Source: a virus. Taken from it: a stretch of 44,293 nt of DNA. The translations under genes and the position numbers were made by a program. The notes beneath the pieces were generated by a model. That model saw only the letters and a program-made list of their open reading frames with translations. It made no database searches and was not told the origin of the DNA. The stretch spans positions 1 to 44,293 of IMG/VR virus record IMGVR_UViG_3300021416_000004; one strand, 5' to 3'. Within the stretch, counting starts at the first letter, position 1; each line of letters begins with the position of its first letter. Below, piece by piece: positions 5,383 to 26,995 of this stretch.

Positions 5383-5428
5383 AGTTTATGGACTAGGGCC
5401 GTCTCAAAACAGGGCAAATTGAGACGAC
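5383..5428 (-). promoter_or_regulatory. Late promoter candidate, copy A (lysis cassette)
   Basis: This is one of three matching elements. Read on the minus strand it has a 27-base block identical in all copies (complement of 5402-5428). The block contains the inverted arms GTCTCAA and TTGAGA(C) around an 11-base centre, then exactly 13 variable bases, then TAAACT as a -10 candidate (complement of 5383-5388). Predicted transcription would start near 5376 and enter the holin-like gene. There is no good -35 hexamer; the dyad centre falls near -37, as for an activator-dependent promoter. Confidence 0.65.
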
Positions 5429-5444
5429 GGCACGCGAATATGTC

Positions 5445-6275
5445 CTACATGCTTTCCCATTCCAGAGTGGTAGCGTGCCGCGCAAAATTCGGGCGCCGCA
5501 TTGCAGACGTTTGCACAAGGCCGCCATATATACGGTGATCGCGCGAGCGCTCCGGCGAGGGGTCGCCGGGATAGAGGTCAATGATGCTTGGGCCATCGGT
5601 GTCGTTGGCCACCTGCATGTCGCAAATGAAGGAGCGGTCGCGCTCGGTCATGCTGCCCAGATCGATCGACAACTTCCAACGTTTCGTTCCCTTGACCGAG
5701 CGGCGATCCCCAGCGTCCGTATAGAACGGCGTTGTGGTGCTGACCGGCGTGCGGGCCGGGTCGTAGGACGCATTCTCATCGGGGCTGAACGTCTCGCCGA
5801 CAAATACCCGCGACAGCTCGAGGTAGCCTTGCAGACTTCCTGAATCCCTAACTCGAATGACCAAGCGCCGGACGCTCGTGTTGTTGAAGTAGGTGAAGGC
5901 ATGGGCGCCGCCGCCCCAGGCATAAGCACTTGCCGCGGTGACGGGCGTCCACGGCGGCAAGAGCTCGCGCGGGCGGGCCGGGCATGCCAGGCGCGCGCCA
6001 GTCTCAAGTACTTTGCTGGCGCCTTCCTCATCGGAATAGCCGAGCACTTCGATAGTCGTCGACGGGGAGCCGTTACACGAAGGGAAGTGCACACCGCCGA
6101 TACGCTCGGCGACGGCAAAGGTCATGATGATCTCGATCTCGGTGCCGACTGCGCGGCACACGTGGGACTTCGTGTCATTTAGCATTGCGTCCGCCGACAT
6201 TCCCGGCACCAATGGTGCGGCGGACATAGCCGCACGCGACGCCACGTTTTTGTTCATGATGATCAGATTAGGCAT
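5445..6275 (-). CDS. Phage tail-associated hypothetical protein, 276 aa
   Basis: Unrecognised. The product is rich in beta-strand-like sequence with no membrane segment, and it is the last gene of the tail-tip group before the lysis promoter. It overlaps the DUF4376 gene by 8 bp. Position suggests a receptor-binding or fibre-associated role, but no domain supports this directly. Confidence 0.7.
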   Translation of the reverse strand: MPNLIIMNKNVASRAAMSAAPLVPGMSADAMLNDTKSHVCRAVGTEIEIIMTFAVAERIGGVHFPSCNGSPSTTIEVLGYSDEEGASKVLETGARLACPARPRELLPPWTPVTAASAYAWGGGAHAFTYFNNTSVRRLVIRVRDSGSLQGYLELSRVFVGETFSPDENASYDPARTPVSTTTPFYTDAGDRRSVKGTKRWKLSIDLGSMTERDRSFICDMQVANDTDGPSIIDLYPGDPSPERSRDHRIYGGLVQTSAMRRPNFARHATTLEWESM

Positions 6276-6834
6276 CGAGAGAGTTCCAGGTGTAGCCGTA
6301 CGCCTCGGCGGGTGTAGTGGCGTTGTCGATCAGATCGCGCAGTGCGCGGCCGCGCTGATGTATGTCGTTAATGCGTGCGGTGAGGGTGAGGCCAAGCGAC
6401 ATGACCTGTTGCGCGTTGAGCGTCACGACGGAGTTATCCGACACAGTCCAGTCAATCGCAAATGGGTCCCCCTCTGCACGCGGCAGCACGGCCGCCAGAA
6501 CGGCGCCGGTGATCTTTGCGACGTCGGGTTGGTACAAGGTCTCGGCGAACTCAAAGTCTGCACCCTCGGCCTCGTCTCGCGCTTCCTTGACAGCTGCCCA
6601 CGCGTTCGCACGGGCGTCGGCAAGTTCGGCCAGGTCGACCCAGTACAGGCCACACTCGAGCGACCAGTACAGCACGGACGTCGGCGTGGGCCCATTCCAG
6701 TCAATCGGGCCATCGAGACGCACGAGCGTACCCTCGGCTTGGCCGTGCCATTGGTGCAAGGGCGTTTCGTCTTCGCATGGCAGGCACGCGCGCACGCGCC
6801 CACCCTCCAATACATCGGCGTAGTAATTCGTCAT
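6268..6834 (-). CDS. DUF4376-type tail fibre accessory protein
   Basis: The 188-residue protein has a C-terminal DUF4376-like pattern (IDWTVSDNSVVTLNAQQV, then an IHQRGRALRDLI helix). This pattern is found in proteins encoded next to tail fibres and is often linked to fibre assembly. It overlaps the preceding fibre gene with ATGA, so translation is probably coupled. Function is inferred from the family and position. Confidence 0.72.
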   Translation of the reverse strand: MTNYYADVLEGGRVRACLPCEDETPLHQWHGQAEGTLVRLDGPIDWNGPTPTSVLYWSLECGLYWVDLAELADARANAWAAVKEARDEAEGADFEFAETLYQPDVAKITGAVLAAVLPRAEGDPFAIDWTVSDNSVVTLNAQQVMSLGLTLTARINDIHQRGRALRDLIDNATTPAEAYGYTWNSLDA

Positions 6835-9329
6835 GGTGGCGTTCCGTGCTGAGCGTGAATGTTAAAGGTCAGGACGCGCGCACGCTGGTTCGCATCGATC
6901 ACGACACAGGTAAGCGTCGCGTCAGTTTCACAGTTTGTGCCAGTGCCGCTGATCGTAGCGGACACATCGGCACCGCCGTTGATATTGATGCGCGAGGTCG
7001 CACTCGTCTTGTAGCGGATAGCGAGCGACCAAATGTATTGATATGGCGCACGCCCGCCCGATGCTGAAATGGTAAAGGTGCCATAGGTCGAACTGCCGTT
7101 CGGATAGCTGCCACCAGCAGCGCCTGATGCCGAAACGGTAAAGTCATTGAACTCCCCGGCGAAGCGGGGTACGCCATTAATAATGGTGAACCCAGGGGCG
7201 TACACATCGCCGAATTGATCCGCGTTGAAATAGCGATTATCGGGAACGCTGCCGCACATGAACCCTTCTGGACCAACATAGAAGCCTTTCTTGCCGGGGG
7301 AAGTCGGCCAGCTGTAGGAGGTAAAATCTCCCCCGTGAATGCCGCCGCCGGGTGCAATGTGTAACGAGCCCAGCGTACCCGACGGGCCGATGAGCGTACC
7401 GCTGAAACCAACCACCGTCTGGCCGTTGACAACGCCACCAGAGAACATGACCTGTGGCGCCGCGCCAGGCGTTACGAAAGCAAAGTTGGCCGCATTGACG
7501 ATAAAGCTCGATGTCGGCTGACCGTCGATGATTTCGCTGGCCAATCCCCAGCCGACGACGTAGCCGTTGTTGTCGATCACCAGTACAGCCTGGCCGCGCA
7601 GTCCGTTAATGCTATCGGCTTGTGCCGTGAGCTTCTGCTCTACGGTTACACCTGAGCCGCCGACATTGTTGAGGCGTGCGTTCACGGCCGTGACATCTTG
7701 AGCGGCTGCGGTCGCATGCCCTTGTGCGTCCGTCGCGCTTTGCGCGGCGCTGTTTCGGTAGGCTAGCGCGTTACCTGCTGCAGTGCTTGCTGTGCTAGCA
7801 CTTTGGCTCGCAGCGGTAGCGCTCTGCCCAGCGCTGCCCGCGGCCGTGTTGGCTGAGGAAGCCGAGGTTGAAGCGGCACCTGCAGACCCTGCCGCTGTGT
7901 CACGCGCACTCTCTGCGGCCACCCTGGCGCTGTTCGCGGCCGTCGCGCTGTTACCTGCACTGCTGGCGTGGGTCGCTGCCGTCGACGCCGACCCGGCCGC
8001 AGCCTGCGCGCTACCACCGACAGCGTTGGCAGAATTCGCGGCATTGGTAGCGCTCGTCGATGCGCTGCTGGCCGATCCAGCAGCGTTGGTTTCCGATGTG
8101 GCCGCGCGCGTGGCGGCCGCCGATGCCTCGCCGGCCCTGGTCGTTGCCGTGCTCGCGCTCGTCGATGCCGAAGTGGCCGATGTCCCAGCCTCCCCCGCCT
8201 TGGCTACAGCGGTGTCCCGCGCGGTGACGGCCGCTGCAGCCGCAGTGTCCGCGCCGCCACGTGCAACCTGAGCTGCAAGTTTCGACGCGTTCGATGCACC
8301 AGCTGCTGATTCCGCCTGCGTGACATAGCCCGAGGCGCTCTGCGCCGACGTAGAGGCTGCGCTTGCCGCAGTGCCCGCAGCGCTGTTCGCTGCCTCAGCA
8401 GCAAGCCGGGAGGAATTCGAAGCGACGGCCGCGCCGACGCTGTCGCCAGCTGCAAGAATGGCCGCGGCCTTGGCCGCGATCGCCGCCTCTGCTGCTTCGG
8501 CCGCCTGCGCTGCTGACTCTGCCGAGGCTGCAGTATCGCCAAAGGTTTCGACAAGGGCCTCGACACGATCGACCAGGCCTGTGCCCTCGGCGTCGACAAG
8601 GTCGATCCGATCGCGCAGATCAGCGAACAATTGCGACTCAGTGATCTGGTTCTGTAGCAGCTCGAGCAGATGTTCGGCACCGGTGCCGGTGATGCCGAGC
8701 GTACCGCCCTGGGCGTTGAATGGTCCCAGCACGTTCGCTTTGGAGACGTAGCGGATCCAGTAATAAAACCGGCCGGCCGCGCCAATGACGTCCGAGTGCG
8801 TGCGTCCCAGGCCTGCGGTCTCACCGACGGGCGACGCGGCAGCGAGGTCATCATCCAGCGCGCGCCAGATCTCGACCTTCGCGATGTTCGTGTCGTTGGT
8901 CGGATGCCAGCTCAGGTTGATGCTCGCCAGCGCGCCTTGGGCGGCCAGGCCTGTCGGCGCCGGCGGCACCGACGAATCGAACGCCAGCAACTTGGTCATC
9001 GACTGGCGGCCCACGTGGGTATCACCCTGGTAGGTAACCGTGGCCACGACCTCACAACCAGACCCCATCAGGGCTGCAGGCGTGAGGATGGCGACATCGC
9101 CGTCGACCGCAAGGGGAGTGCCGTTGTTGGTGGAAAATTCGACCGTGCCGCCGGTGAAGCCCACGCGGGTGGCAATGAAGACAATCGACGACGGGGTAAC
9201 GGTGGCATCGAGCGCCACGTCGAAGCCCCGCGCGCTGGCACTGAGCTGCAGCCTGCGCGCGTACGCTTCGCCGTAGCGCGACGGAGCCGCCTGCAGCAGT
9301 CGGTCGATGTCGTTGATAGCTTGGATCAT
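6831..9329 (-). CDS. Central tail-tip/fibre protein with long Ala/Ser repeat region
   Basis: An 832-residue modular protein. An N-terminal beta-rich part holds a fibronectin III-like segment (about 120-215). Next is a short segment common in tail-tip J-type proteins (ITESQLFADLRDRID). A long Ala/Ser/Thr-rich region of about 300 residues follows, with irregular heptad-like repeats that should form an extended trimeric coil. A DUF1983-like part (VLVIDNNGYVVGW) and a C-terminal beta domain complete it. The ATG at 9329 overlaps the upstream stop (ATGA); an in-frame TTG 33 bp upstream is less likely. It probably forms the central fibre or J-like C-terminal half. Confidence 0.85.
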   Translation of the reverse strand: MIQAINDIDRLLQAAPSRYGEAYARRLQLSASARGFDVALDATVTPSSIVFIATRVGFTGGTVEFSTNNGTPLAVDGDVAILTPAALMGSGCEVVATVTYQGDTHVGRQSMTKLLAFDSSVPPAPTGLAAQGALASINLSWHPTNDTNIAKVEIWRALDDDLAAASPVGETAGLGRTHSDVIGAAGRFYYWIRYVSKANVLGPFNAQGGTLGITGTGAEHLLELLQNQITESQLFADLRDRIDLVDAEGTGLVDRVEALVETFGDTAASAESAAQAAEAAEAAIAAKAAAILAAGDSVGAAVASNSSRLAAEAANSAAGTAASAASTSAQSASGYVTQAESAAGASNASKLAAQVARGGADTAAAAAVTARDTAVAKAGEAGTSATSASTSASTATTRAGEASAAATRAATSETNAAGSASSASTSATNAANSANAVGGSAQAAAGSASTAATHASSAGNSATAANSARVAAESARDTAAGSAGAASTSASSANTAAGSAGQSATAASQSASTASTAAGNALAYRNSAAQSATDAQGHATAAAQDVTAVNARLNNVGGSGVTVEQKLTAQADSINGLRGQAVLVIDNNGYVVGWGLASEIIDGQPTSSFIVNAANFAFVTPGAAPQVMFSGGVVNGQTVVGFSGTLIGPSGTLGSLHIAPGGGIHGGDFTSYSWPTSPGKKGFYVGPEGFMCGSVPDNRYFNADQFGDVYAPGFTIINGVPRFAGEFNDFTVSASGAAGGSYPNGSSTYGTFTISASGGRAPYQYIWSLAIRYKTSATSRININGGADVSATISGTGTNCETDATLTCVVIDANQRARVLTFNIHAQHGTPP

Positions 9330-10897
9330 TTCAGGAATCTCACAGTAACTTTGCGGGTCCACCAGTCGCGTTTAACCGACAGCACTTGGGCTTCGACGCC
9401 GTTGAACATGCCGTCCTGCTCGTGATAAACAATGAGGCGCGCGCCTTTCTCGAGCAGGAGCAGGTCAGGCACACCGTCAAACTCATAGATGTCGCGACCC
9501 GGACCCCATAGCGCGATCTCGCGATCGGCTTCAGCGGCAGCGTCGACGCCCTGTAGCAGCATCGTCGCGCGCATCGTCGCGGTGCCAGGCAGTTTGCAGT
9601 CGCGCATCACGGCCGCGCTGGTCCGGGTCACGGTCAGCGGCCATTCCTTCTCGAGCAAGGCCAAGTGCTCAGGCAGGAGGTTGCTCTGCAGCCCAGGTTG
9701 GGGCGTCCAGTTTTTGCAATACCCCAAGTTGACCGCTGCTACCGGATCGATGTGCTCGATGTGACGCAAGGTGCCGCCGACCATGTGCTCGGCGCGGATC
9801 TCGGTCGCGGACCCGGCCGCCGGCAGTGCGATCTGGATCAGCTGCAGCTTGCCGTTCAGCGATGGTGCGAGCTGGGCTCCGATGCTGCTGGCCAGCATGT
9901 CGCACGCGGCGATGACGTTCAGGCTTTCACGTACGTGCAGTCCGACTTCCTGCTGATTTGCGGCGTCGAAGGCAGCAAAATTCGCCGCATCGATGTTGGC
10001 CAAGGAGTAGCGATCGGAATACTTGCCGTATCCGGTGATGAAGCGCTGGACGAGGGGCGCGATTGTCTTGCGGAACACGCCGCCGAACTTGTCCCCCTGC
10101 ACCCAGGCAGTGATCGCCGCGCTCGCGTTGTCCACGGTCAGCTGCGCCTTGCCAGTGCTCTCGGAGACAATCACCTGCTCGGTGATCGGCAGCCCGTTGG
10201 CACGTGTTTCCGGGATGCCTTCGATCGGCCCGTCATGCCACTGCCGCTCGCGGGCGTTGAAATCGCTCCACTCGCCTGATGGGTTGAAAGGCTCGCCGAA
10301 GGTTAGCGGGATCGGCAGGTCGGCGTTCGTGCCGGCGCCGCCGAACTTGCGCTCGCTGAGCGGATAGTTCAACCCCTCCATCATGTCGCGCAGACGAAGG
10401 GCGAAGGCGCCTCTGCCCTTGCGCACTAGTCCCGCAGTATGGCCAACGAAGATGTCGCGATAGTCAGCCCGCGCCCAGGTCTGATCTCCTACGACCGCGA
10501 CGATCTCGTCCGCCCAGATATAGCTGGCGTAGGCCTCGTTCACGCCGTTCGTATTGTCGACCTCGAAGTCGCCAGCCGAGAGAGAGGCGGCTCCTGTAAT
10601 GGATAAGCTCTCCTCGAACGGGATGCTGGCCGAGATCATGGGCGCGTAAAAGATCGGGTTGTTCGTGCCCGCGGTCGTGTATCCATTGGTGGACCAGAAG
10701 AACTTAGTGCGCACGCCGCCGACGAGCGCCCAGGTCTCGACCAGGATGTTCGTGATCGCATCGTCGCTCTTCAGCCAGGCCGCGAATTCAGCGTCGGTAA
10801 CGGTGCGCGCGGCCGGCTGCTGCTCAGCGACCGTGGGTGCATCGAATACCAAGCTGCCACTGGGCGTATGTGTTGTATCAAAGACGAGCGCGGTCAT
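9326..10897 (-). CDS. Tail-tip (hub-like) protein, 523 aa
   Basis: A large soluble protein in the tail-tip cluster whose internal segments (LTFGEPFNPSGEW, RDIFVGHTAG) resemble phage tail proteins that assemble at the distal end of the tube. I cannot name a Pfam family with certainty. It follows the FN3 gene with ATGA overlap and precedes the central fibre gene with ATGA overlap, so the cluster is translationally coupled. It may do the job of the N-terminal half of lambda gpJ. Confidence 0.78.
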   Translation of the reverse strand: MTALVFDTTHTPSGSLVFDAPTVAEQQPAARTVTDAEFAAWLKSDDAITNILVETWALVGGVRTKFFWSTNGYTTAGTNNPIFYAPMISASIPFEESLSITGAASLSAGDFEVDNTNGVNEAYASYIWADEIVAVVGDQTWARADYRDIFVGHTAGLVRKGRGAFALRLRDMMEGLNYPLSERKFGGAGTNADLPIPLTFGEPFNPSGEWSDFNARERQWHDGPIEGIPETRANGLPITEQVIVSESTGKAQLTVDNASAAITAWVQGDKFGGVFRKTIAPLVQRFITGYGKYSDRYSLANIDAANFAAFDAANQQEVGLHVRESLNVIAACDMLASSIGAQLAPSLNGKLQLIQIALPAAGSATEIRAEHMVGGTLRHIEHIDPVAAVNLGYCKNWTPQPGLQSNLLPEHLALLEKEWPLTVTRTSAAVMRDCKLPGTATMRATMLLQGVDAAAEADREIALWGPGRDIYEFDGVPDLLLLEKGARLIVYHEQDGMFNGVEAQVLSVKRDWWTRKVTVRFLK

Positions 10898-11559
10898 GGG
10901 CCCACCAGGATCCGAGCAGCCACTGCTGTCGTCCCGTCCGTGTCAGCCAAAACCAACCAGTACCATCCGGTTGGTACCGTCCCTGCTGGCACCGCGATCT
11001 TGAGATCAGCCGAGCCTGCCGTCATCGTGTGCGTCCCCTGGGCGACGGGAGCGCTGAAATGGCGCGGCGACGCTTGCGAGAACAGCGACCATTCCAGAAC
11101 TGCGAGACTCGAATGCAGTACGCCCTCATGGGTGGCCAGCTTTCCGGGTATGTAATTCGTGCCTGGCAGGGCCTCACCTGTCGCTGTGCTGGTGGTGACG
11201 CCAATAGTCAGCGGCTCCGACGCATTGCCGTTCGTATCGACGCAGCGCACGTCGATCTGGTAAGGCGTGCTGGCCGCCAACGCAGGAAACGTGTGCGTCT
11301 TGCTAACCTCTTCCGCAGGGGTGGCGGGTGTGTACGCTCCAGTGCCGCCAATCCGATATTCACGCCGGGCGATGGCAACGTTGTCTGTGCTGATAGCGCC
11401 CGACCATTCAATTGTGATCGAATTGCTCGTTGAGCTGTACTGCAGACTGCCAGTGAACGTCGGAGGAACACCGTCACCCACTGCAGGCGGGGTGCCTGAA
11501 GTCAGTGACAGAGCGCCAGTTCCCATTGGCGCCAGGCCAATTGCCTGAACGCCAATCAT
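10894..11559 (-). CDS. Tail protein with fibronectin III-like domain
   Basis: The 221-residue product has one fibronectin III-like domain (about 35-125, ending in YQIDVRCVDTNGNAS) and a C-terminal beta-rich part containing GWYWLVLADTDGT. Such domains decorate siphophage tail tips and bind cell-surface sugars weakly. It overlaps both neighbours by ATGA, within the coupled tail-tip cluster. Confidence 0.78.
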   Translation of the reverse strand: MIGVQAIGLAPMGTGALSLTSGTPPAVGDGVPPTFTGSLQYSSTSNSITIEWSGAISTDNVAIARREYRIGGTGAYTPATPAEEVSKTHTFPALAASTPYQIDVRCVDTNGNASEPLTIGVTTSTATGEALPGTNYIPGKLATHEGVLHSSLAVLEWSLFSQASPRHFSAPVAQGTHTMTAGSADLKIAVPAGTVPTGWYWLVLADTDGTTAVAARILVGP

Positions 11560-14219
11560 CAGTTTGCCCCTGCACCGGCAACCACTTTATAATTCGCTGC
11601 GGTTGCGTTAGTAGCCCACCCAGCATCGCTAATCCCGACACTGCCGACGACAACAGTACTCGACAAAATACAGACCTTGCGCCCACCACTGCCCGCCACG
11701 TATTTAATGTCATACGCAAAGTCGAAGCCATTCCCGAAGCTGTCATGCTCGGTGTCGTAAGTGCCGATGCCCAGTGCGTGGTCTCCGTTGATAACGATCG
11801 AGTTCTTACAGCACTCGACGTTCAACATGCCAATCCAAGACGAGTGGAAAGCCGGCTCCAGCGTGACCGCATTTATGCACCCGTAGATGGTCAGGCGGTC
11901 GATGCTCATGTGTTCGCTAAAGCTGACGCCGTTGTTATAGCCGCCGACAAACACTTGCCCCCACTTGAACGCGCCACTGTTATCGCGCTTGGAAGTGCGA
12001 ATGCCGGTACTATTGACCGCAGTAGGAACAGGGTTTGTTCGCATGCCGCGATTGACATCGACGCGAACGTTATTCAGGAAGCCGCCATTCGCCAGGTTGT
12101 ACAGGTCGAGTCCGCCCATCTTGTTAGCGCCGCCAGCCGTGTTTGTGCGGATGCATACGTTTTCGAGCGAGAAGTCGGTGAAACTCAAAACGCCCCAGGT
12201 GAAGGTGAATCCCGCAGCCGAGGTAATGACGGCCGGATTTGAGCCCGACGTAACAGTCAGGGTGGACTCGAAGATGACACCGTTGTTCACGACAGGAACA
12301 TCCGAAATCGCGCCATAAATCCAATTCGTCGCGCCTTCGCCGATGATGCGAATACTTTTCATTGACGCTGCAAGATCGGATGCGGGAATGACGATCTGAC
12401 CATTGCAGCCGCGCCCGAAGTCATCAACGGTACGTACCGGCCCGGCAATCTTGTAGCGGCCCTCCTGCGCGCGAATCGTCTGCACGCCGGAAATAAACGC
12501 GTCGTTGATTGCCGCTTGAATACCCGCAGTCGAGTCCGTCGTAAAGGTCGGGTCGACTGGATAATCCCGCAGGTCGATATACGATTTGACAGCCATACGC
12601 TTGATGGCGGCAGCGGTCAGCGTGACGTAAATATTTTTGGTGCCGGCAGCGAAATTGACCCGCGCATTGCCGTTCGAGCTTTCCGTCACGATGTCGCGCG
12701 TGAAGATAGTGGTGCCGGTCAGGGTGCCAAGACCGGTTTCCCAGTCCCCCGTCGTCATGTCCTCGATGCAGTACGGAATGCCCGACTTTCCGACCGCGTA
12801 CACGCCCGCAAACGTGCGCAATCCAAGCTGCGTCAGGTTTGCCAGCGTAACCGGCCCGTTGCCGGCGCTGGTCGTCGTGTCGCGCACGCGGTCGGCGTAG
12901 TTGTTGGACTGGCCGCGAATGCTCAGGAAGTAAGGCGAAACTGTCAGGCCTGCCGCGACATTGTTCGTGACAGGCTGCGCGGCAAACGTCGCCGTCGCGT
13001 TGCCTGCGGCATCCTGCAAGCGCGGGTTCGCGCCTGGCTGCGTGTACGCAATGCTGATTTCGTCGCCACTTGCATACGGCGTGTTGACGGTGACGCTTGC
13101 CACAACGCCAGTAACGGTCACGCCGGTAACGGTGCGCCCGCCTGATGGGGTAAATGCGCTGTTCGACGGCACGCTTGCCGCCAGCGCCTCGTTCATCGTC
13201 ACCAGGATGACGGACGGTTGCGCGTTGGCCACCTGCGCGCTGGAAAATATTGGCGCCGCGTTGTCGGCGGCGCCGACGTTATTCGCGATCGCCAGCCCGC
13301 TGAAGTTTGCCAGCAGGTTGGGAGTGGTCGCAACGTCGCGGGCGTTGTTGATGCCCGGCTGCGTGTAGGCTACAGTACGCGCCGCTTCGCCGTTCACGAA
13401 GGCAGCGGAAACCGTCGCGCGCAGGACTGTAGCGCTTTGCCAAGACAGCGCCGTGACGGCGTGCCCGCTGACCGTGACCGATGACGCGGCTGGCGTGGTG
13501 GCTGTGTCCATCGCCTCGGACATGGTGATGTCCACAAACGTCGGGGTGGCGTTGGCAACGGAGGCGCTCGCTGCGGTTGGAGGGATTGCGTCGGCGACGG
13601 CGCTGGCTTTCAGTTCAATAACCGACTGCGACTGGGGGACGATGCTTGGCCCAGTAAGCGTCCATGCCATCGCCGTAGGTGCTTGCGCGTAGCTCATGCC
13701 GGCGTAGAACGAATTATCGACGGCAAGGAACTTGTCAGCTTGCGTCGATGGTGCTGAAGGGACCGGAGCGCTCGTGGTATCTGCTTTGGCAACCACGTAC
13801 ATATCGACAGCTACGTTTCCTGCCGTGACCGCAATCGACTGCGAGAACGGACTGCCTGCTGTCGCGGCATGCCCCGCGACATTACCAACTGGCGATGCCT
13901 GGTTGACCCCGCTGAAACCGCTGACAATAGCGCCAATGTTGGTCGAGGTCGAGAACGAAATGATAACGTTATTGATTCCCGATGCCGGGCCGGTGCCAAC
14001 ATACATAGTTGTGCCTGACGACACCCCGCTCGCGCCATCATGACGTGCTAGTGTCAGGGCAACACCGTTATAGGTGACGCCGGTAACGACTGCGACAAGG
14101 ATGTCGCGAATACCGACCACGAGTGCATCGCACCCGGTGGCGTCGAATGGGATCATCAGCGTGGTTGCACTTGCTGCGGTGCCGCCGCCATGCGCGGCGC
14201 GTACAAATTGAATAGTCAT
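11559..14219 (-). CDS. Tailspike-like protein with Ig-like repeats and beta-helix
   Basis: An 886-residue modular protein. An N-terminal virion-anchoring part (1-200) is followed by two Ig/SwmB-like repeats (about 213-415, each with a conserved ...VDITMSEAMD or ...ILVTMNEALA strand and AYTQPG). A linker region follows (about 425-550). From about 555 there is a pectin-lyase-type right-handed beta-helix, beginning with the usual STAGIQAAINDA signature. Spikes of this kind bind and often cleave capsule or O-antigen. No catalytic residues can be assigned from sequence alone. It is probably the main receptor-recognition protein. Confidence 0.8.
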   Translation of the reverse strand: MTIQFVRAAHGGGTAASATTLMIPFDATGCDALVVGIRDILVAVVTGVTYNGVALTLARHDGASGVSSGTTMYVGTGPASGINNVIISFSTSTNIGAIVSGFSGVNQASPVGNVAGHAATAGSPFSQSIAVTAGNVAVDMYVVAKADTTSAPVPSAPSTQADKFLAVDNSFYAGMSYAQAPTAMAWTLTGPSIVPQSQSVIELKASAVADAIPPTAASASVANATPTFVDITMSEAMDTATTPAASSVTVSGHAVTALSWQSATVLRATVSAAFVNGEAARTVAYTQPGINNARDVATTPNLLANFSGLAIANNVGAADNAAPIFSSAQVANAQPSVILVTMNEALAASVPSNSAFTPSGGRTVTGVTVTGVVASVTVNTPYASGDEISIAYTQPGANPRLQDAAGNATATFAAQPVTNNVAAGLTVSPYFLSIRGQSNNYADRVRDTTTSAGNGPVTLANLTQLGLRTFAGVYAVGKSGIPYCIEDMTTGDWETGLGTLTGTTIFTRDIVTESSNGNARVNFAAGTKNIYVTLTAAAIKRMAVKSYIDLRDYPVDPTFTTDSTAGIQAAINDAFISGVQTIRAQEGRYKIAGPVRTVDDFGRGCNGQIVIPASDLAASMKSIRIIGEGATNWIYGAISDVPVVNNGVIFESTLTVTSGSNPAVITSAAGFTFTWGVLSFTDFSLENVCIRTNTAGGANKMGGLDLYNLANGGFLNNVRVDVNRGMRTNPVPTAVNSTGIRTSKRDNSGAFKWGQVFVGGYNNGVSFSEHMSIDRLTIYGCINAVTLEPAFHSSWIGMLNVECCKNSIVINGDHALGIGTYDTEHDSFGNGFDFAYDIKYVAGSGGRKVCILSSTVVVGSVGISDAGWATNATAANYKVVAGAGAN

Positions 14220-19467: not shown

Positions 19468-19481
19468 ATGCTCGCTGTTCC

Positions 19482-19850: not shown

Positions 19851-20197
19851 GCTTTTGCGCCGCTTTCCTTCATGTAGGAGGCCACGGCAATGTCCAGCAC
19901 GTTGGCGGCGCCGAACATGACTTCTTTCGCCTCCTGGTCGCACGGTGCGGGCTGCTTGACTTCGTCGAGGACGAAGTTTTGGTTGGTCCAGCCTTCGGTG
20001 ATACGGATCATCGTGTCGCGGATCTTCTCGTTCGTCGGAATGCCGTCGCCATTCTTGATGCTGGCCTGGAATTCCTCCACCGTCAGACGCTCGCAGGTAA
20101 GCGAAAAGTTGAAGCGCTTGGTTTTCTCGCCGTCCTGGATCTCGAAGATCATCGGGACACGAACCCTGTCCGCCACTGCCAGTTGATATTTGCTCAT
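19838..20197 (-). CDS. Tail assembly chaperone (gpG-like)
   Basis: A 119-residue protein made just after the tail tube gene and before the tape measure, the invariant place of gpG-like chaperones. The ATG at 20197 gives MSKYQLAVADRV; a longer in-frame start at 20260 is unlikely. Codons GCA AAA AAC near the 3' end contain the slippery heptamer, four codons before the stop if the stop is counted. Most ribosomes would terminate to give this short form, and a minority would make the GT-like fusion. Confidence 0.88.
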   Translation of the reverse strand: MSKYQLAVADRVRVPMIFEIQDGEKTKRFNFSLTCERLTVEEFQASIKNGDGIPTNEKIRDTMIRITEGWTNQNFVLDEVKQPAPCDQEAKEVMFGAANVLDIAVASYMKESGAKAKNL

Positions 20198-20267
20198 GTG
20201 TTCTCGTTTCGATATGGGAATGAATAGATGCCGACCAGGTGGTGCAGTCGCCTGCACCACCCTTCTC

Positions 20268-21239
20268 TTACAGGCAGACCAGGCGGATTTCGTCGTTGCC
20301 GGCGACCGGGATGAACTTCAGGTCGAAGCCGACATAGCGGATGCCTTGGACATCCACCTTTTTCGGATTCGACAGTTGCACGGACGGGCCGTAGATCAGG
20401 ATGCTGTTGCCGGTGATGAGGCCGATCTTGAGGGCGACGCTGATCTCTTCGCCGGCGCGGACCTTTGCCAACATGGCGACTTCCTGCGCAGCAGTCAGCT
20501 GCAGCTCGGTCGAGCCCGTGACTTCGCGGTCGGTGATGTCGGCCTCGTTCAAGCTCAGGTTCGAATGGAACTCGACCTTGTTGCCCAGGTTGACGTCGAG
20601 ACCCGTGCTCGGATAAACGGTGCCACCAGCAATTGCCCCTGCGGCGTACACGCCGCCGAAGGTCATGTCGACCACGTTTTCCTTGATCATCGCCACCGGC
20701 TTTTTCCATGCGGTCAGGGTGGCAACCTCGTTCGGCGTTGCGGTGATCGCGCCGGCCACGCCGGTGAATTCATACTTCAGAGACGGCGTGCCGCCCTTCT
20801 TCGCCGACAGGGAGACATTGCCCATCGAGCCCAGCGCTTTGTGCAGGACGCCGTCGTCGTAGTAATAGACCGTGGCATCCTTCAGACCAGTGGAGATCGG
20901 CGTGTATTCGACGCGGTCCGGCACGGTCAAGGCGCCTTCGGCCATGGCACAGGCCATGTTCAGCTTGCCCCAGGCCGGCGGCGTGGCAGCGGCGCCCGAG
21001 CCCGCCAATGCGACGGTGATCTCGATCTTCACGCTTGCAGCGCCCATCAGGTCGGCACTTGCGCCGAAGAAGCCTTTCATGGCGGGATTCGCGATCTTCT
21101 CGAGCTCGAGCGGAGTGATCGCCATTTCCGAGACGAGCACCGCATTCGCAGCGCCGGTCGGCACTGCATCCTCGCCGGCGTTGGTCGCCAGCTTGACGAG
21201 GATGACGGTGTTGCGAATACGACGGGTATTTGCGCCCAT
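20268..21239 (-). CDS. Major tail tube protein
   Basis: The 323-residue product occupies the tail-tube position between head-tail joining genes and the chaperone pair. It is beta-rich, with Ala/Gly-rich insertions and no membrane segment. An AAGGAA site precedes the ATG. The identification rests on gene order and overall character rather than on a named motif. The C-terminal half may include an Ig-like decoration, but this cannot be confirmed by eye. Confidence 0.82.
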   Translation of the reverse strand: MGANTRRIRNTVILVKLATNAGEDAVPTGAANAVLVSEMAITPLELEKIANPAMKGFFGASADLMGAASVKIEITVALAGSGAAATPPAWGKLNMACAMAEGALTVPDRVEYTPISTGLKDATVYYYDDGVLHKALGSMGNVSLSAKKGGTPSLKYEFTGVAGAITATPNEVATLTAWKKPVAMIKENVVDMTFGGVYAAGAIAGGTVYPSTGLDVNLGNKVEFHSNLSLNEADITDREVTGSTELQLTAAQEVAMLAKVRAGEEISVALKIGLITGNSILIYGPSVQLSNPKKVDVQGIRYVGFDLKFIPVAGNDEIRLVCL

Positions 21240-21242
21240 GGA

Positions 21243-21389
21243 TTATTCCTTCACTTCTGCTGCTGGTTGTTCGGCGGGCTCGTTCGAGACCCAGTCCCAC
21301 TTCACGCGATCGAAGGTCCAGCTGCCGCCGCTTGGTGGTGTCGGGATGGCGCGCTCTTCGACTGGCGCGTCCTGTGCTTTTTTCGTCAT
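21243..21389 (-). CDS. Small phage protein, 48 aa
   Basis: A short Pro/Glu-rich protein beginning MTKKAQDAPVEERAIP, with a central aromatic patch FDRVKWDWVS. Its ATG overlaps the stop of the preceding gene (ATGA), and it ends just before the tail tube gene, so it is tightly packed in the late operon. I do not recognise a family. Its coupling and conserved-looking composition make it a likely real gene. Confidence 0.7.
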   Translation of the reverse strand: MTKKAQDAPVEERAIPTPPSGGSWTFDRVKWDWVSNEPAEQPAAEVKE

Positions 21390-21826
21390 GGTTGTTCCAG
21401 AGTGAGGTTGTTGGTTTGGTGCATCACCGGGTACGACATACGCACCCAGCCGGTTCTCTGCTGCTCCGCGTTGTATTCGGCCTCGATCATTGGCTCACCG
21501 ATGTCCGTCACCAGGTCGCCCAGCGTGCGGTCGGCCGCAATGCGCTCGTACACCTGCATCAGCAGCGGGTCGACGGCCAGGTCAGCGCTGGTCGTGGTCG
21601 TGCGTGCGTAGCATTCGATCGTGAACTTGGACTCCCAGTCCACGGGCGCACCGAAGATCGCTCCTCGCGCCGGCAGCGCGCCGTCGAACTGGACGTTGAT
21701 CGCGTCCGGAAACTCCTCGGCCAGCTGGCGGTCGCGCGCCCGGAAAATCTGCTGCGACAACGGCGGCTCGGCTTCGAGCAAGGCGACGAGCGCTCCAGTG
21801 ATGCGCGCGAAAGCGGAAAAGCTCAT
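21386..21826 (-). CDS. Tail terminator-like protein (gpU-like)
   Basis: A 146-residue alpha/beta protein placed between the head-tail joining gene and the tail tube gene, where lambda-type phages encode the tail terminator. Features such as an N-terminal helix (FARITGALVALLEAEP) and a central beta segment ending in IECYAR fit gpU/minor-tail families. The name is mainly based on position. The start overlaps the upstream stop (ATGA). Confidence 0.68.
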   Translation of the reverse strand: MSFSAFARITGALVALLEAEPPLSQQIFRARDRQLAEEFPDAINVQFDGALPARGAIFGAPVDWESKFTIECYARTTTTSADLAVDPLLMQVYERIAADRTLGDLVTDIGEPMIEAEYNAEQQRTGWVRMSYPVMHQTNNLTLEQP

Positions 21827-22113
21827 GCCAGCTCCAAGAGCAGGACGGTGATGTCGCGATCGGAGTTTTCGGCGTCAATGCCTGCCACCCGGTACGCGGT
21901 GCCGTCCTCAAGCAGCAGCGGCTTGCCGACCGGGCTGGCCGGTACCGAGGTCGCCGGCAACGTGAAGGCTGGGCGAGTGGCTGCAAAACCCATCCCGCTA
22001 CCCTCGACCAAATGCTGCTTATCGAAGATCCCGACCACGGGCGCACCGGCAAGCGTTGCGTTGTCGGCAAACTCGGCGGCACTAAAAAATATAGTCAGGT
22101 CTTCTACGAACAT
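21823..22113 (-). CDS. Head-tail joining protein (gpFII-like)
   Basis: A 96-residue beta-rich protein with the pattern of gpFII-type head-tail joining proteins: VVGIFDKQ, then a short loop, then a closing DGTAYRVAGID strand. It would cap the connector so that finished tails can attach. It lies directly after the head genes. The upstream ribosome binding site is weak. Confidence 0.78.
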   Translation of the reverse strand: MFVEDLTIFFSAAEFADNATLAGAPVVGIFDKQHLVEGSGMGFAATRPAFTLPATSVPASPVGKPLLLEDGTAYRVAGIDAENSDRDITVLLLELA

Positions 22114-22125
22114 GGGAATCCGCGA

Positions 22126-22362
22126 TCAGGCTGCTGGTTGGTCGGAAGTGCCAGGCGCTACCGACTGGTCGGCGGCGGCGTCAGCCTTCGCTTTCGCGGC
22201 GGCGTCAGCGTCAGCCTTCGTTTTCGCCGCGCGCGGGTCGGCCGCTTCCGCGGCGCCCGCATCGATCAGCGCGGCCGCTGCTCCGCGATCGATGTCGACC
22301 GTGTCGCCAGGCTGGAGGCGCTTCCCGTCATGCCGGGTTGGGTGGAGGATCGCGATTTTCAT
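22126..22362 (-). CDS. Small head-region protein, 78 aa
   Basis: The N-terminal half (MKIAILHPTRHDGKRLQPGD) has the form of small phage proteins often found after capsid genes (DUF7210-like, from memory). The C-terminal half is a low-complexity Ala/Lys/Asp stretch. The ATG overlaps the stop of the capsid gene (ATGA). The role is unknown; a head-completion or decoration function is possible. Confidence 0.7.
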   Translation of the reverse strand: MKIAILHPTRHDGKRLQPGDTVDIDRGAAAALIDAGAAEAADPRAAKTKADADAAAKAKADAAADQSVAPGTSDQPAA

Positions 22363-23309
22363 CAGGCAGCCGCCGGCACAGCGTTGGTGATCAGGAAGCC
22401 GGCGGTCGGCGCAGCCAGGACAGGCGCTTCGGCACGCGTGACCGGGTAGATCCACGACTTCGCGCTGCGGTCGTAGTACGGCTCTTCTACGTCCGGGTAG
22501 CCGTTGAGCTGGTAGGTGTAGCCGTAGCTCGGCAGGCCGCCCGATTGCACGCTGGCCAGGTTGGTGTACGCAACAATGACGTCGCGACCCCAGACGTCGA
22601 TGAAGTCCGATCCGTCGTCGTTCGCGTAGATGGCATCGCCAACGGCTACGCGCTCGACACCGAACAGCGCCGCCAGCAGTTCCTTCGTTGCAACATCGCG
22701 ACCCGTGTACTTGATGCGCTCCAGGACCTTCGGGTGGTTCTTCAGCTTGGCGAACACCTGGGCGCCCAAGGTAACGGTGTTCGGGCGCTTGCCCGTGGCG
22801 GAGCGAATGCGCTCCTTGGCGGCTTCGATATCGTCGATCGGGTCGCTCGTTGCATCGGTCCACTGGTCCGAACCAGACAGAGCGACCTTGTTCGCGCTGC
22901 CGTAGCTCGCAGGATTGCGGGCCAGGTCAGCGGACTGCTTTTCCAGGCGCAAGGCCATGATCGCGCTGACGTCATTGATGGTGCCGGCGCTAAGGTCAAT
23001 GCCAGGGCCGTTCGCAGCTTCTTCCTGAACTTCCATCGGGAGCACGCCTTCGAGGGAGTAGTCGGTCAGAGCGTACGGGGCACCGGCATAGCCGAAACGC
23101 ACGCGGCGCGTGTTTTCGCCAGGCGCGCGTTCGCTCTGGTACAGCATGAACGCTTCCTTACCGAACTGGATGATCTTTCCGGCGCGCAGATGCACGGGCA
23201 CGGTCGGGAACAGCATCGACCCGATCATTTCGTTGTTCTGGTAGCCCTGGGCGACCGTGCTGAGGACTGGATCGACGATGCGCGCCTGCGCGGGATTCAT
23301 TTGTGGCAT
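22362..23309 (-). CDS. Major capsid protein
   Basis: The 315-residue product follows the protease/scaffold and DUF2190 genes, the place of the coat protein. It has the layout of an HK97-fold coat: an N-terminal arm, an E-loop-like segment (YPLTD-type: APYALTDYSLEG) and a C-terminal domain with WGRDVIVAYTN. AGGAG precedes the ATG. No long N-terminal prodomain is apparent, consistent with a separate nested scaffold. Confidence 0.88.
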   Translation of the reverse strand: MPQMNPAQARIVDPVLSTVAQGYQNNEMIGSMLFPTVPVHLRAGKIIQFGKEAFMLYQSERAPGENTRRVRFGYAGAPYALTDYSLEGVLPMEVQEEAANGPGIDLSAGTINDVSAIMALRLEKQSADLARNPASYGSANKVALSGSDQWTDATSDPIDDIEAAKERIRSATGKRPNTVTLGAQVFAKLKNHPKVLERIKYTGRDVATKELLAALFGVERVAVGDAIYANDDGSDFIDVWGRDVIVAYTNLASVQSGGLPSYGYTYQLNGYPDVEEPYYDRSAKSWIYPVTRAEAPVLAAPTAGFLITNAVPAAA

Positions 23310-23323
23310 GTGATGCTCCTGAA

Positions 23324-23665
23324 TTAGTTAGGGATGACCAGGACTTCGATCTGTTCGCCGTCAGCCACGGCGGCGGTGAGAGCACGGCCGACGGTGATGC
23401 CAGCGGCCTTGGTGACCACCTTGCCCGCGGCGCCCACTTCCACTGCTGCGCCGAGCGCGATCGCGCCGCCAGCGGTTGCGAGGGCAGTGCCCAGCGCGGT
23501 CACCGGCAGGCGCTCGCCCGCAGCAGCGGCCCCGGTGTTGGTAAAGCCGACCGCGTTGCCACCGGCGGCGGCAACGTTGCCGGCGGCGCTGATGGCACGG
23601 TTTTGACCGATTGCCGCGACGGCGATAACGCCGATGGTGAGTACTGCGAAATTACCTTTGGCCAT
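23324..23665 (-). CDS. DUF2190 capsid decoration/head fibre protein
   Basis: A 113-residue Ala/Gly/Val-rich beta protein typical of DUF2190, a family found between the scaffold protease and coat gene in many siphophages and thought to decorate the capsid like lambda gpD. AGGGAG precedes the ATG. Confidence 0.85.
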   Translation of the reverse strand: MAKGNFAVLTIGVIAVAAIGQNRAISAAGNVAAAGGNAVGFTNTGAAAAGERLPVTALGTALATAGGAIALGAAVEVGAAGKVVTKAAGITVGRALTAAVADGEQIEVLVIPN

Positions 23666-23667
23666 GT

Positions 23668-24075
23668 TCAGGCTCCCTGTTGGATGTGTTTCACGGCGGC
23701 GACATAGCCGACGCCCGGGTTGGCGGCCATGTACTCTTTGGCCTTGGCATCAAGATCGGCACGCGAAAGCGGCTTCTTCTCTTCCTCCGCCTGCGACACG
23801 GCCGCAGGCGGCGTCAGTGCGAGCGGCTTTGGCGCTTCATTGGCTGCGGCCGCGGCGTGCGCGGTGCGGGACGCCTTTTCTGCTGCCAGCACGGCCATGG
23901 CTGCATCGCCGCCGGTCGACTTGCCGTCGAACTTGAGCGTGTTGATCAAGGCCTCGTGGCCCGCAATGGTTTGGGCTTCGATGGCCTGAATGCGGCTGCG
24001 CTCAGCGGCGGCACCTTCGGCGCGCAGTTCAGCCGCGAGGGCCGGGTGTTGCGCTTCGATCTGGTCTTTGTTCAC
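23668..24075 (-). CDS. Nested scaffolding protein (Nu3-like)
   Basis: An in-frame internal start inside the S49 protease gene: a GTG at 24075 preceded by AAAAGGAAG at ideal spacing (six bases). The product, 135 residues starting MNKDQIEAQHP, is a charged helical protein suited to scaffold the capsid. Lambda makes Nu3 from within C in just this way. Evidence is the strong ribosome binding site at the junction between the protease and scaffold parts. Confidence 0.7.
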   Translation of the reverse strand: MNKDQIEAQHPALAAELRAEGAAAERSRIQAIEAQTIAGHEALINTLKFDGKSTGGDAAMAVLAAEKASRTAHAAAAANEAPKPLALTPPAAVSQAEEEKKPLSRADLDAKAKEYMAANPGVGYVAAVKHIQQGA

Positions 24076-24996
24076 GGAACTTCCTTTTGGGATGGTGGTT
24101 TGCGAATGGTTGGTCCACGCTGGGCCGGCGCGGTGCGGTGTCGCTGCGCGGCCCGACACGCCGCGGTCCTGATTCAATTTCTCGATTAGTGCTTCGAGGG
24201 ACATGATCCCGTCGACCAGGCCGGCGTCGAGTGCCTGCTGCCCGGTGAAGATGCGGCCTTCCGCCATGTCGCGCAGGACGACGTCCGCGCTGACACCGCG
24301 ATACTTCGCGACGTCGCCCACGAACATCGAATACATGTAGTCGAGTTGCTCCTGGATTGACAGGCGGCCGTCTTCCGAGAGCGGCGCGTACTGGCTGGCC
24401 ACGCGCTTGAACTTGCCGGCCGTGAGCTCGGTCGTCTTGATGCCGCGCGCGGCTTCGGCCGCGCTGATGTCCTTGTGGGCGCCGACAATGCCGATCGAGC
24501 CGACCGACGTAGTGCCGTCCGCGATGTAGACGGCGCTCGCAGCGCTGCCGAACCAATACGCCGCGCTGGCCATCGTTCCGCTACCCAAGGTGACAATCGG
24601 CTTGTCGCCGCGCGACTCGAACACGGTCTCCGAATAGGTCTGCGTGCCGTCGACCGTGCCGCCCGGGCTGTCGACGTACTGGATGATGCTGTGGACTGCG
24701 GAATCCCTCTTCGCATCGATCAAGCTCTGGCGCGCCAGCTGGCTGCTCGCGCCGCCAGAAATCTGGCTGAACATGTTCATTTTTTTGGCGACCACGCCTT
24801 CGATGGCGATGATCGCGACGCCATCGACGATGTCATAAGCCCGCTGCTCGTTGGCCAGCGGCCGGCCAAGCCGGGCCTCGACTGCCGCGATGTCGATCTG
24901 TTCGCCGCGCACGTGCGAGGCATAGATCGCCTGCAACTCGAGGAGCTTGCCGGGTTCTATGGCCCAGGGACCGGAGAGAACATCAAGAATTTTCAT
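23668..24996 (-). CDS. S49 family capsid protease with C-terminal scaffold
   Basis: A 442-residue lambda gpC-like protein. The S49 (SppA/ClpP-type) protease domain spans about 50-270, with nucleophile Ser144 in GTMASAAYW and general base Lys195 in LTAGKFK. It processes scaffold and portal during prohead maturation. The C-terminal 135 residues are helical and Glu/Ala-rich like a scaffold, and can be made separately from an internal start. The ATG at 24996 gives the usual N-terminus MKILDVLSGPWAI; an in-frame TTG at 25011 is also possible. It is the first gene after late promoter candidate B. Confidence 0.92.
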   Translation of the reverse strand: MKILDVLSGPWAIEPGKLLELQAIYASHVRGEQIDIAAVEARLGRPLANEQRAYDIVDGVAIIAIEGVVAKKMNMFSQISGGASSQLARQSLIDAKRDSAVHSIIQYVDSPGGTVDGTQTYSETVFESRGDKPIVTLGSGTMASAAYWFGSAASAVYIADGTTSVGSIGIVGAHKDISAAEAARGIKTTELTAGKFKRVASQYAPLSEDGRLSIQEQLDYMYSMFVGDVAKYRGVSADVVLRDMAEGRIFTGQQALDAGLVDGIMSLEALIEKLNQDRGVSGRAATPHRAGPAWTNHSQTTIPKGSSVNKDQIEAQHPALAAELRAEGAAAERSRIQAIEAQTIAGHEALINTLKFDGKSTGGDAAMAVLAAEKASRTAHAAAAANEAPKPLALTPPAAVSQAEEEKKPLSRADLDAKAKEYMAANPGVGYVAAVKHIQQGA

Positions 24997-25035
24997 CGAA
25001 TTATTTGGCAATCGAATAGCTGAGCTGAGGCATGA

Positions 25036-25081
25036 ACTTTACCGAGCGGCCCTGTCTCAAAACAGGGCAAATTGAGACGAC
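25036..25081 (-). promoter_or_regulatory. Late promoter candidate, copy B (protease/head/tail)
   Basis: Second copy of the shared element: the 27-base dyad block is the complement of 25055-25081, then 13 bases, then TAAAGT (complement of 25036-25041). It fills the only sizeable gap between the portal and protease genes, and transcription would begin about 30 bp before the protease start. The flanking 13 bases differ from copies A and C, so the conserved parts stand out. Confidence 0.65.
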
Positions 25082-25089
25082 TTCGCGCG

Positions 25090-26697
25090 CTATTGTTCAG
25101 GCGTTGCCGGCGGATCAGCAGCAGGGCCAGGACCGGTTGCAGGCGCCGCCCGACCCATCGGCGGCAGGTAGATTCCATCAGCCTTTTCGGCCTTGATTTC
25201 CTTCACCCTCTGGGTGTGCTTGGCCTGCCAGCCGACGCCGTCGTGGAGGATGCTTTCGGCATCTTTCGTGCTGATCCCCATGTCGACGCGCTTCTGTGCA
25301 GCGTCGACCTCTTTCACAGGGTCGATGCTGCCCGGGCCGTCGCCGGTCCAGATGGCTTTGCACCAGGCGGCGCGCACGACGTCGCTGGAGAAGAACCCTG
25401 GTGCGCTGATGCGGCCCTCGGCCACCTCGTCCGATAGCCACAGCTCGTACACTGGTTGGCACAGGTAGGTCGCCAACATGTCGCGCCGGGCCCGGAAGGT
25501 TTTCCACGCCATCAGCAGCGCGGCACGGGCGGCGCTGTAGCTGCTCTGGAAGTGCATCGTGAGCACTTCGAACGGCAAGTCGAGCGCCATGCCGATCTGA
25601 CGCACGATCGCGCTCCAGAATGGATCGAATTCAGGATTCGGCCGGCCGGGCGAGCTGGTTTCGATGCTCTCGCCCGGGAGCAGGTTCACGGCCTGTCCGG
25701 ATTCCATTTTTCCGCTCCACCGTCCGGCGTTTTCGACGATGGCGCCCTGGGCGTCTTCATCGAACAGCTGGTCGAAGGCATCCGGATCCATCTTGACGAA
25801 CACGCTGAACAGGCTGCTCGTGACGGCTGCATTGAGCTCATTGTCCGTCCAGGCGGCGAGCTGCTTGAGCGGTTCCAAAATTGGTGCGATCAGCGGAACG
25901 CCACGCACCTGGCCCGGTCGCAGCGGCTTGAACAGGTGCAGAACGTTGCGCCGCCCGGTGCTATCGCCGCGCATCGCAACGCGTGTCCATGCGTTGCCCT
26001 GCACCTGCCTGTCACCGGGGTGCTGTCGCGCGACCTGCACGGCGACGGTTTCACCGGTCTCCTCGCTGATCTCGATTCCGTCGATCAGGGTCAGCGTATT
26101 GGCGCCCCGATTCGGGTTACACACGCGATCGGCCTCGAGCAGCTGCAAGGCCAATCTCGCCACACCGCCGGCGCGCGCAATACGTGGCGTGATAACGAAG
26201 GCATCGCCGCTTTCGAGCATCGTCCGAAACCCGAGGTCCTGGATGCCGTAGAAATTCAGGTGGCGCGCGACGTCGCAGTCCGTCGACTCCGCCCAGATGT
26301 CGAAGCGAAGCTTGGTATTAGCGGCCCATTCCGCCGCCTCGTCGTCCGTAATTCCCAGGAGGGCGGCGGACGGCGCCGGCGTCAGGGCGAGGCCGGTGCC
26401 GACGACATGGCTGACCGTGGTGTTGATAGCGCCCAGAGCGAGCGGCGCGTTACGCATCTGGTCGCGGCTGCGCGCGCGCAGCGCCGGAAGGTCGGCAATG
26501 ATGTCGGTGGTGGCGGATCCGCCGGTGGTAAGCCAGCGGCTCAGCGCGGCGCGGTCGACCCGGGCGCCCGTGTAGCCGCCGCCCAGGGCGAGATGGGCGC
26601 GATCTGCCATGCGCTGGCGCGCTACCTTTGGCGCCACGTAGGCGATCGCTTTGTCGAGCAGGTTCTGCTGAACGAGTGGGTTAGGTTTGCCGGTCAT
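25090..26697 (-). CDS. Portal protein (lambda gpB-like)
   Basis: A 535-residue phage portal of the lambda type (phage_portal_2). It forms the dodecameric ring at the capsid vertex through which DNA is packaged and released. Typical segments are present: RSRDQMRNAPLALGAINT, DTGxE-like WAESTDCD, and a C-terminal LEVLTMHFQSSYSAARAAL-type helix (FQSSYSAARAALLMAW). The Pro-rich tail is flexible. It lies 2 bp after the gpW-like gene. Confidence 0.93.
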   Translation of the reverse strand: MTGKPNPLVQQNLLDKAIAYVAPKVARQRMADRAHLALGGGYTGARVDRAALSRWLTTGGSATTDIIADLPALRARSRDQMRNAPLALGAINTTVSHVVGTGLALTPAPSAALLGITDDEAAEWAANTKLRFDIWAESTDCDVARHLNFYGIQDLGFRTMLESGDAFVITPRIARAGGVARLALQLLEADRVCNPNRGANTLTLIDGIEISEETGETVAVQVARQHPGDRQVQGNAWTRVAMRGDSTGRRNVLHLFKPLRPGQVRGVPLIAPILEPLKQLAAWTDNELNAAVTSSLFSVFVKMDPDAFDQLFDEDAQGAIVENAGRWSGKMESGQAVNLLPGESIETSSPGRPNPEFDPFWSAIVRQIGMALDLPFEVLTMHFQSSYSAARAALLMAWKTFRARRDMLATYLCQPVYELWLSDEVAEGRISAPGFFSSDVVRAAWCKAIWTGDGPGSIDPVKEVDAAQKRVDMGISTKDAESILHDGVGWQAKHTQRVKEIKAEKADGIYLPPMGRAAPATGPGPAADPPATPEQ

Positions 26698-26699
26698 GA

Positions 26700-26924
26700 T
26701 CAGCCCCCGACAATGGTACGGCGGCGGCTGCGGCCACGGGCGGCGCCCGACAGGTCGACTACGCGCGCATTCCAGGATCTGATGCCAACCTGGATGGCCG
26801 CGAGGTCCGCGCGCGTCAGCTTGCGGCCGGCGATCTCGTACGACTGATTGGTGAGCACAGCCTGTTCCGCTGCAAGGTAAGCTTCCAGCTGTGCCTGGGC
26901 CTGCGAGAGTGTGATTCCTGCCAT
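26700..26924 (-). CDS. gpW-like head-tail connector
   Basis: A 74-residue protein with an N-terminal helix (LSQAQAQLEAYLAAEQAVL), a beta hairpin (YEIAGRKLTRADL) and a C-terminal helix, matching gpW. It sits between terminase and portal as in lambda. The ATG at 26924 has GGAGG eight bases upstream; a TTG at 26939 does not. It is the first gene after late promoter candidate C. Confidence 0.87.
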   Translation of the reverse strand: MAGITLSQAQAQLEAYLAAEQAVLTNQSYEIAGRKLTRADLAAIQVGIRSWNARVVDLSGAARGRSRRRTIVGG

Positions 26925-26949
26925 AAATGTCGCCTCCAATGATGAGGCG

Positions 26950-26995
26950 AGTTTATGTACTCATCCGTTCTCAAAACAGGGCAAATTGAGACGAC
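26950..26995 (-). promoter_or_regulatory. Late promoter candidate, copy C (connector/portal)
   Basis: Third copy of the element: dyad block complement of 26969-26995, 13 bases, then TAAACT (complement of 26950-26955). Here the outer base of the right arm differs (TTGAGAA instead of TTGAGAC). It starts 1 bp after the Mor/C-like activator gene and lies about 26 bp before the gpW-like start codon, so the activator gene and one of its presumed sites are side by side. Confidence 0.65.

Follow-up and report, generated by a model that had tools for sequence, protein, structure and literature searches.

Phages P1 and P2 have multiple sigma-70 late promoters, in which the site for an activator (Lpa in P1, Ogr in P2) replaces the -35 element. 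The dependence of the P1 late promoters on Lpa has been described (PMC8201110). In phage Mu the late promoters Plys, PI, PP and Pmom depend on the activator C, and the promoter Pm depends on Mor (PMC4461284, PMC4390567, PMC4287176). The -10 element of Plys is TAGACT (PMC4461284), and the Mor and C sites, with their centre at -43.5, comprise two short arms flanking a spacer of 6 bases (PMC4390567).

We have analysed a single virus record from IMG/VR, a stretch of 44,293 bases that is called the window here. It contains three copies of an element that, judged by comparison with related phages, are very probably the late promoters of a temperate phage, co-activated by the phage's own activator of the Mor/C family. 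We found no earlier description of these promoters in the open-access literature.

The 27-mer TCTCAAAACAGGGCAAATTGAGACGAC (plus strand) is present at 5402-5428, 25055-25081 and 26969-26995, and the copies are exact at all three places, as the initial annotation had claimed. It is the leading repeat family in a repeat analysis of the window, and a scan of the window allowing up to 6 mismatches revealed no fourth copy. Three identical 27-mers at unlinked places in 44 kb greatly exceed what chance could give. On the minus strand the copies read GTCGTCTCAATTTGCCCTGTTTTGAGA, followed by 13 bases and then by TAAACT, TAAAGT or TAAACT, again as first described. Taken as -10 elements, the hexamers are positioned in agreement with predicted starts at 5376, 25029 and 26943. 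The sequence TTGAGA was considered as a -35 element and rejected; it is separated by only 13 bases from the -10, and no sigma-70 -35/-10 pair was called at any of the three sites in the window. The elements and the genes around them are listed below.

27275 to 29389, minus strand: terminase large subunit (terL; phrog_15, 4.6e-205), directly upstream of the activator gene
26997 to 27278, minus strand: gene for the predicted Mor/C-family late activator, located between terL and the gpW promoter; GTG start, product of 93 aa
26950 to 26995, minus strand: late promoter 1 (predicted) for gpW/portal, GTCGTCTCAATTTGCCCTGTTTTGAGA-N13-TAAACT, with the left arm from 26992, the core TTGCCCT at 26984-26978, the -10 at 26955-26950 and a predicted start at about 26943
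26700 to 26924, minus strand: gpW-like head-tail adaptor (phrog_118, 9.5e-22), ATG at 26924-26922
25090 to 26697, minus strand: lambda-B-type portal protein (phrog_21, 3.7e-107)
25036 to 25081, minus strand: late promoter 2 (predicted) for protease/head/tail, with the -10 TAAAGT at 25041-25036 and a predicted start at about 25029
23668 to 24996, minus strand: head maturation protease (phrog_53, 1.6e-80), opening the second block, ATG at 24996
22362 to 23309, minus strand: major head protein of the second block (phrog_1005, 3.1e-98)
5383 to 5428, minus strand: late promoter 3 (predicted) for lysis, with the -10 TAAACT at 5388-5383 and a predicted start at about 5376
5071 to 5322: small ORF in the holin position ahead of the endolysin, without a PHROG match
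4424 to 5071, minus strand: GH19-type endolysin of the third block (phrog_181, 2.8e-59; PF00182, 4.2e-12)

The copies had been assigned to positions ahead of lysis, protease/head/tail and gpW/portal blocks, and the family matches of the downstream genes agree with this. The second block comprises protease, scaffold, major head protein and tail genes. There are three elements in the whole window, none of them ahead of terL; the window also contains an integrase (phrog_1) and a primase. The relatives share the three positions of the element (gpW/portal, protease and lysis), and there too the one at the lysis position precedes the endolysin cassette. The terminase, gpW and portal gene types are like those of lambda, but there are three predicted activator-type promoters in the late region, compared with a single promoter, pR′, and the antiterminator Q in lambda. 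This contrast, drawn in the initial annotation, is real, but several activator-driven late promoters are known already from Mu, so that the principle is not new. The phage itself is not Mu-like in its structural genes, having a lambda-type terL (phrog_15) and portal (phrog_21) and a gpW-like adaptor, in addition to the integrase and the primase.

The end of the gene at 26997-27278 adjoins the first element. Its protein matched phrog_532 ('late transcriptional activator') with E 8.5e-8, and Pfam Mor (PF08765) with E 2.8e-5 and a score of 24.5 bits that is just below the cut-off of 24.9. Pfam Mor was matched at E ≤ 1e-3 by 19 of 39 homologues. In hhalign this 39-member family matched Mu Mor and C with a probability of 94.8 and E 5e-8, over the GG linker and the helix-turn-helix. 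The linker GG-x-x-V/F-x-I/V-P followed by a C-terminal helix-turn-helix is present, with GGLRVRIPK and KHKISRATLYR conserved. When predicted models were compared with the PDB using Foldseek, Mu Mor (1rr7) was the top match and the transcription complexes of Mu C (9l0x) and Mor (9l0y) were within the top five; the E-values are weak (0.01-0.2), and the same family was on top in two models. Sequence similarity to Mu Mor and C is low, as seen in the Pfam score and in Foldseek E-values of 0.01-0.03, and tblastn of annotated phages with the activator at 1e-5 gave no match. Profile A2 compared with PDB sequences matched only an unrelated regulator (E 0.027), and the Mor match obtained with profile A1 (0.032) was gone; family membership therefore rests on Pfam and PHROGs, hhalign and Foldseek. 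Matches from VIA-align reflect the common helix-turn-helix and were set aside as evidence for the family, and L061 and L062 were rejected as members, being spurious helix-turn-helix matches. On these comparisons we accept the predicted product as a distant member of the Mor/C family. The promoter lies directly after the activator gene in the window and in nearly all relatives, in the same way that Pm follows mor and Plys follows C in Mu.

Relatives were sought in two independent searches, one using the activator protein and the other the DNA motif, extending a comparison suggested in the initial annotation. The two features co-occur: about 50 related phage sequences contain the element together with a neighbouring gene for a Mor-type activator. 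In all the protein-found loci that are readable downstream of the gene, the element lies no more than about 2 kb away, and in almost every case immediately after the gene; the distance reaches about 2 kb in Massilia L058 and Nitrotoga L060. We note that L037 and L058 (Massilia sp. Root418) and L060 (Nitrotoga) have extra genes between the activator gene and the gpW promoter. Contigs found only by the motif carry the activator, the exceptions being short or distal pieces that do not reach it upstream, together with L119 and L096. The site in L096 is without a -10, and that in L119 (a 141 kb contig) was rejected as a true element, being a chance-like match to the motif that also has no -10. In Pseudomonas phage KT1, the nearest portal relative in the phage collection, neither activator nor element is present between terL and gpW of its terL-gpW-portal region. 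Since the element and the activator are closely linked, their co-occurrence is partly a matter of shared ancestry.

The anatomy of the element was examined in 82 distinct sequences, i.e. every GTCTCA-N1..4-core, with no requirement for a -10. The hexamer TA(A/G/C)A(C/G)T begins exactly 22 bases past the core TTGCCCT. TA...T occurs at this offset in 60 of the 82 distinct elements, compared with 0.25% at other offsets, and within the hexamer A2 is found in 80, A4 in 75 and T6 in 81 of the 82. A T is also present four bases upstream of the hexamer in 69 elements. The patterns used for retrieval included GTCTCA and TTGCCCT while the -10 was absent from them; the conservation of GTCTCA and TTGCCCT in the motif-found sites is therefore built in. 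The protein-found sites have the same core as the motif-found ones.

The initial annotation described the block as an imperfect dyad. GTCTCAA-N11-TTGAGAC is indeed present with no more than one mismatch in all three copies, and only in these in the window; at up to 3 mismatches there are 4 matches in the window against 1.2 expected. In the copy at 26969, where the plus strand reads TTCTCAA, the outer G-C pair of the dyad is missing. The right arm slides or is lost in the relatives, so it is not an invariant part. It begins (as TGAGAC) 3, 4 or 5 bases past the core, and is missing at the gpW promoters of L035, the L036/L038-L040/L043/L048 group, L041, L044, L053 and L137, and at the protease promoters of L044 and L058. 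With the left arm, core and -10 fixed while the right arm slides or is lost, the site is directional: the -10 stands in a fixed relation to the left arm (approximately -49 to -44) and to the core (-41 to -35), and the right arm is auxiliary. The left arm and core taken together have their centre near -42, as against about -37 for the complete dyad.

The offset of the right arm, the base after the core and the core variant all covary with the activator clade. At gpW promoters a right-arm offset of 3 goes with activators having the other type of linker and the core TTGCCCT (15/15), and an offset of 4 or loss of the arm goes with activators of the window's type (20/20). An offset of 5 is found with a distant activator clade, where the core is CACCCCT or TGACCCT.

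The locus resembles Mu in having an activator of the Mor/C family and several (here predicted) late promoters without a -35, one of them for lysis and one before the protease. In Mu, Pm comes after mor and Plys after C, just as the gpW promoter comes after the activator gene here. The Plys -10, TAGACT, also fits TA(A/G/C)A(C/G)T. The sites themselves are unlike, being GTCTCA-N2..4-TTGCCCT(-N3..5-TGAGAC) here and TTAT-N6-ATAA-like in Mu. Here the arms are 11-13 or more (about 19) bases apart, i.e. approximately two helical turns, with the centre at about -37 and the right arm dispensable. Because the geometry was tested and differs, the element falls outside the class of Mu Mor/C sites. A single activator was found here, compared with the cascade from Mor to C in Mu. 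The activators of P1 (Lpa) and P2 (Ogr) are unrelated to this one, and their sites and positions differ, although these phages too have multiple late promoters with an activator site instead of a -35.

We propose that transcription from upstream would produce the terminases and the activator, whose gene closes the terminase operon. The activator would then occupy GTCTCAAT-TTGCCCT, the left arm and core at about -49 to -35, while TGAGAC, the right arm, served as an auxiliary half-site. Bound there, the activator would stand in for the -35, with host sigma-70 RNA polymerase starting about 7 bases past TA(A/G)A(C/G)T, and these starts would open the gpW/portal, protease/head/tail and lysis blocks. 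Binding, the use of sigma-70, the start sites and the timing are each predicted in this scheme. The initial annotation had put forward activator-dependent late promoters in which the dyad replaces the -35; comparison with the relatives strongly supports such promoters, but a complete dyad appears not to be essential.

The copies sit between gene blocks, and the dyad can make a stem of 6-7 bp in read-through RNA, as might be expected of an RNA hairpin between operons (for processing, attenuation or a terminator-like function) rather than a promoter. Yet the stem is no more stable than those of shuffled sequences (z -0.34) and is not followed by a U-tract, and several lineages that have lost the right arm retain the core and the -10 at 22 bases. 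Since an RNA hairpin also leaves the -10, the ATG at +1 and the linkage to a DNA-binding activator unexplained, we regard it as very improbable. It is unlikely too that the element is bound by some other regulator (a phage repressor or a host factor), with the Mor-like neighbour there by shared ancestry only. Base for base the site is unlike those of Mu C and Mor, and its binding by the activator is a prediction. Against this, the covariation of the site with the activator clade and a layout equal to that of Mu both point to the neighbouring gene, and even with distant activators, at 29-39% identity, a diverged site is found in the same place and with the same spacing. An exact repeat in several intergenic gaps might also be a generic or mobile one (a MITE, an uptake-like sequence or a host repeat) lying there by accident, and the initial annotation had named occurrence at unrelated chromosomal places as an observation that would count against promoters. 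The three gene contexts, the orientation and the -10 spacing are constant in the relatives. A search for the element plus its -10 in 399 genomes of the order to which the Burkholderiaceae MAG belongs gave 2 matches, both in the prophage of that MAG, and none in the 398 others. The fixed spacing and the result from these genomes refute a generic repeat in practice, and its probability is negligible. Late promoters driven by the neighbouring activator are the preferred reading.

A second layer of control may exist at the gpW promoter. In T4 I-TevI, soc and e, RNA started upstream has the ribosome site hidden in a hairpin, the 5′ arm of which can be absent from late-started RNA (PMC2988022). A combination of a hairpin and read-through RNA is also reported for B. 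subtilis sigG (PMC5942855). The following feature is found in the window.

26931 to 26949, minus strand: inverted repeat CGCCTC-ATCATTG-GAGGCG across the predicted start

Its 5′ arm, at 26949-26944, falls between the -10 and +1, and the 3′ arm holds the gpW Shine-Dalgarno sequence, GAGGCG. The read-through RNA has a predicted fold of -18.1 kcal/mol (z -3.75, with 0 of 200 shuffles as low), in which the gpW Shine-Dalgarno sequence and AUG are paired, compared with -3.3 kcal/mol for the promoter-started RNA. The hairpin would therefore hide both in read-through RNA from the terminase-activator operon, while promoter-started RNA without the 5′ arm would be translatable. The first nine bases past the -10 were compared with the Shine-Dalgarno region in 23 dissimilar gpW leaders, and their complementarity is above that of all 2000 permutations. 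The pairings differ by lineage (CGCCTC/GAGGCG, CTCTCC/GGAGAG, TCCTCC/GGAGGA and AAAGCTTC/GGAGCTTT), and the mean predicted openness of the Shine-Dalgarno sequence rises from 0.24 in read-through RNA to 0.47 in promoter-started RNA. Hiding of the Shine-Dalgarno sequence is thus predicted, from RNA folding, to be a common but not a universal device of gpW leaders. We consider that the chances are evenly balanced for its start-dependent release as a second layer. The inverted repeat might instead work on the DNA or on the stability of the mRNA; it is kept without a Shine-Dalgarno sequence in L109 and L093, and is absent from the leaders of L111, L044, L012 and L046. In most leaders, however, the 3′ arm is the Shine-Dalgarno sequence, with which the 5′ arm covaries more strongly than in any of 2000 permutations; this leaves a DNA or stability function possible but rather doubtful. 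Release of the gpW ribosome site would resemble the T4 cases in the masking by a hairpin in upstream-started RNA, and would differ from them in being predicted only, in involving the gene that opens a late structural operon and in being missing from some relatives.

At about 14 sites in divergent clades (two groups) the downstream ATG is 7-8 nt past the -10, precisely at the place expected for the start of transcription. This would fix +1, and leaderless protease mRNAs are therefore predicted there; in one clade the protease mRNA should be leaderless. The protease start codon is so placed in L094, L097, L093, L133, L134, L117, L126, L057 and others, and in L057/L056 the start of the gene in the gpW position is likewise 7-8 nt past the -10. 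The protease leaders of L038, L039, L043, L048 and L116 have a near-perfect hairpin, TTCGGCATCAA..TTGATGCCGA, between the -10 and the ATG, and no Shine-Dalgarno sequence. One might envisage a switch with two locks, in which the activator code sets the start of the RNA and the start point sets its translatability (through the gpW hairpin and, in one clade, the leaderless protease); we put this forward tentatively, at somewhat short of an even chance. The predicted leaderless protease RNAs, and the predicted release of the gpW ribosome site according to the start point, both lend themselves to direct testing.

These results would extend late activation in the style of Mu to phages with packaging genes of the lambda type. 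Such phages were found as prophages in Massilia, another lineage of Burkholderiaceae and Nitrotoga, and also in many metagenomes. The pattern GTCTCA-N2..4-TTGCCCT-N22-NANANT can be used to flag such prophages and their late operons. Approximately 40 naturally varied pairs of activator and site are available for working out how the Mor/C family recognizes DNA, and complexes of the Mu proteins have been solved and are in the PDB.

Some other features of the window may be noted. Adjoining the primase gene, at 30832-30959, there are three 9-base units (TTAACAGGG/TTATCAGGG-like) in inverted orientation and about 75 bases apart, and this arrangement is also found in L039 and L101; the units are possibly the iterons of a replication origin. 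The gene at 29975-30874, between primase and terminase and outside the tail block, is annotated as a minor tail protein (phrog_1924, 1.1e-72). Past the lysis cassette, at 2500-3639, there is a gene for an O-acetyltransferase (O-antigen acetylase-like), which is likely to be a lysogenic-conversion gene.
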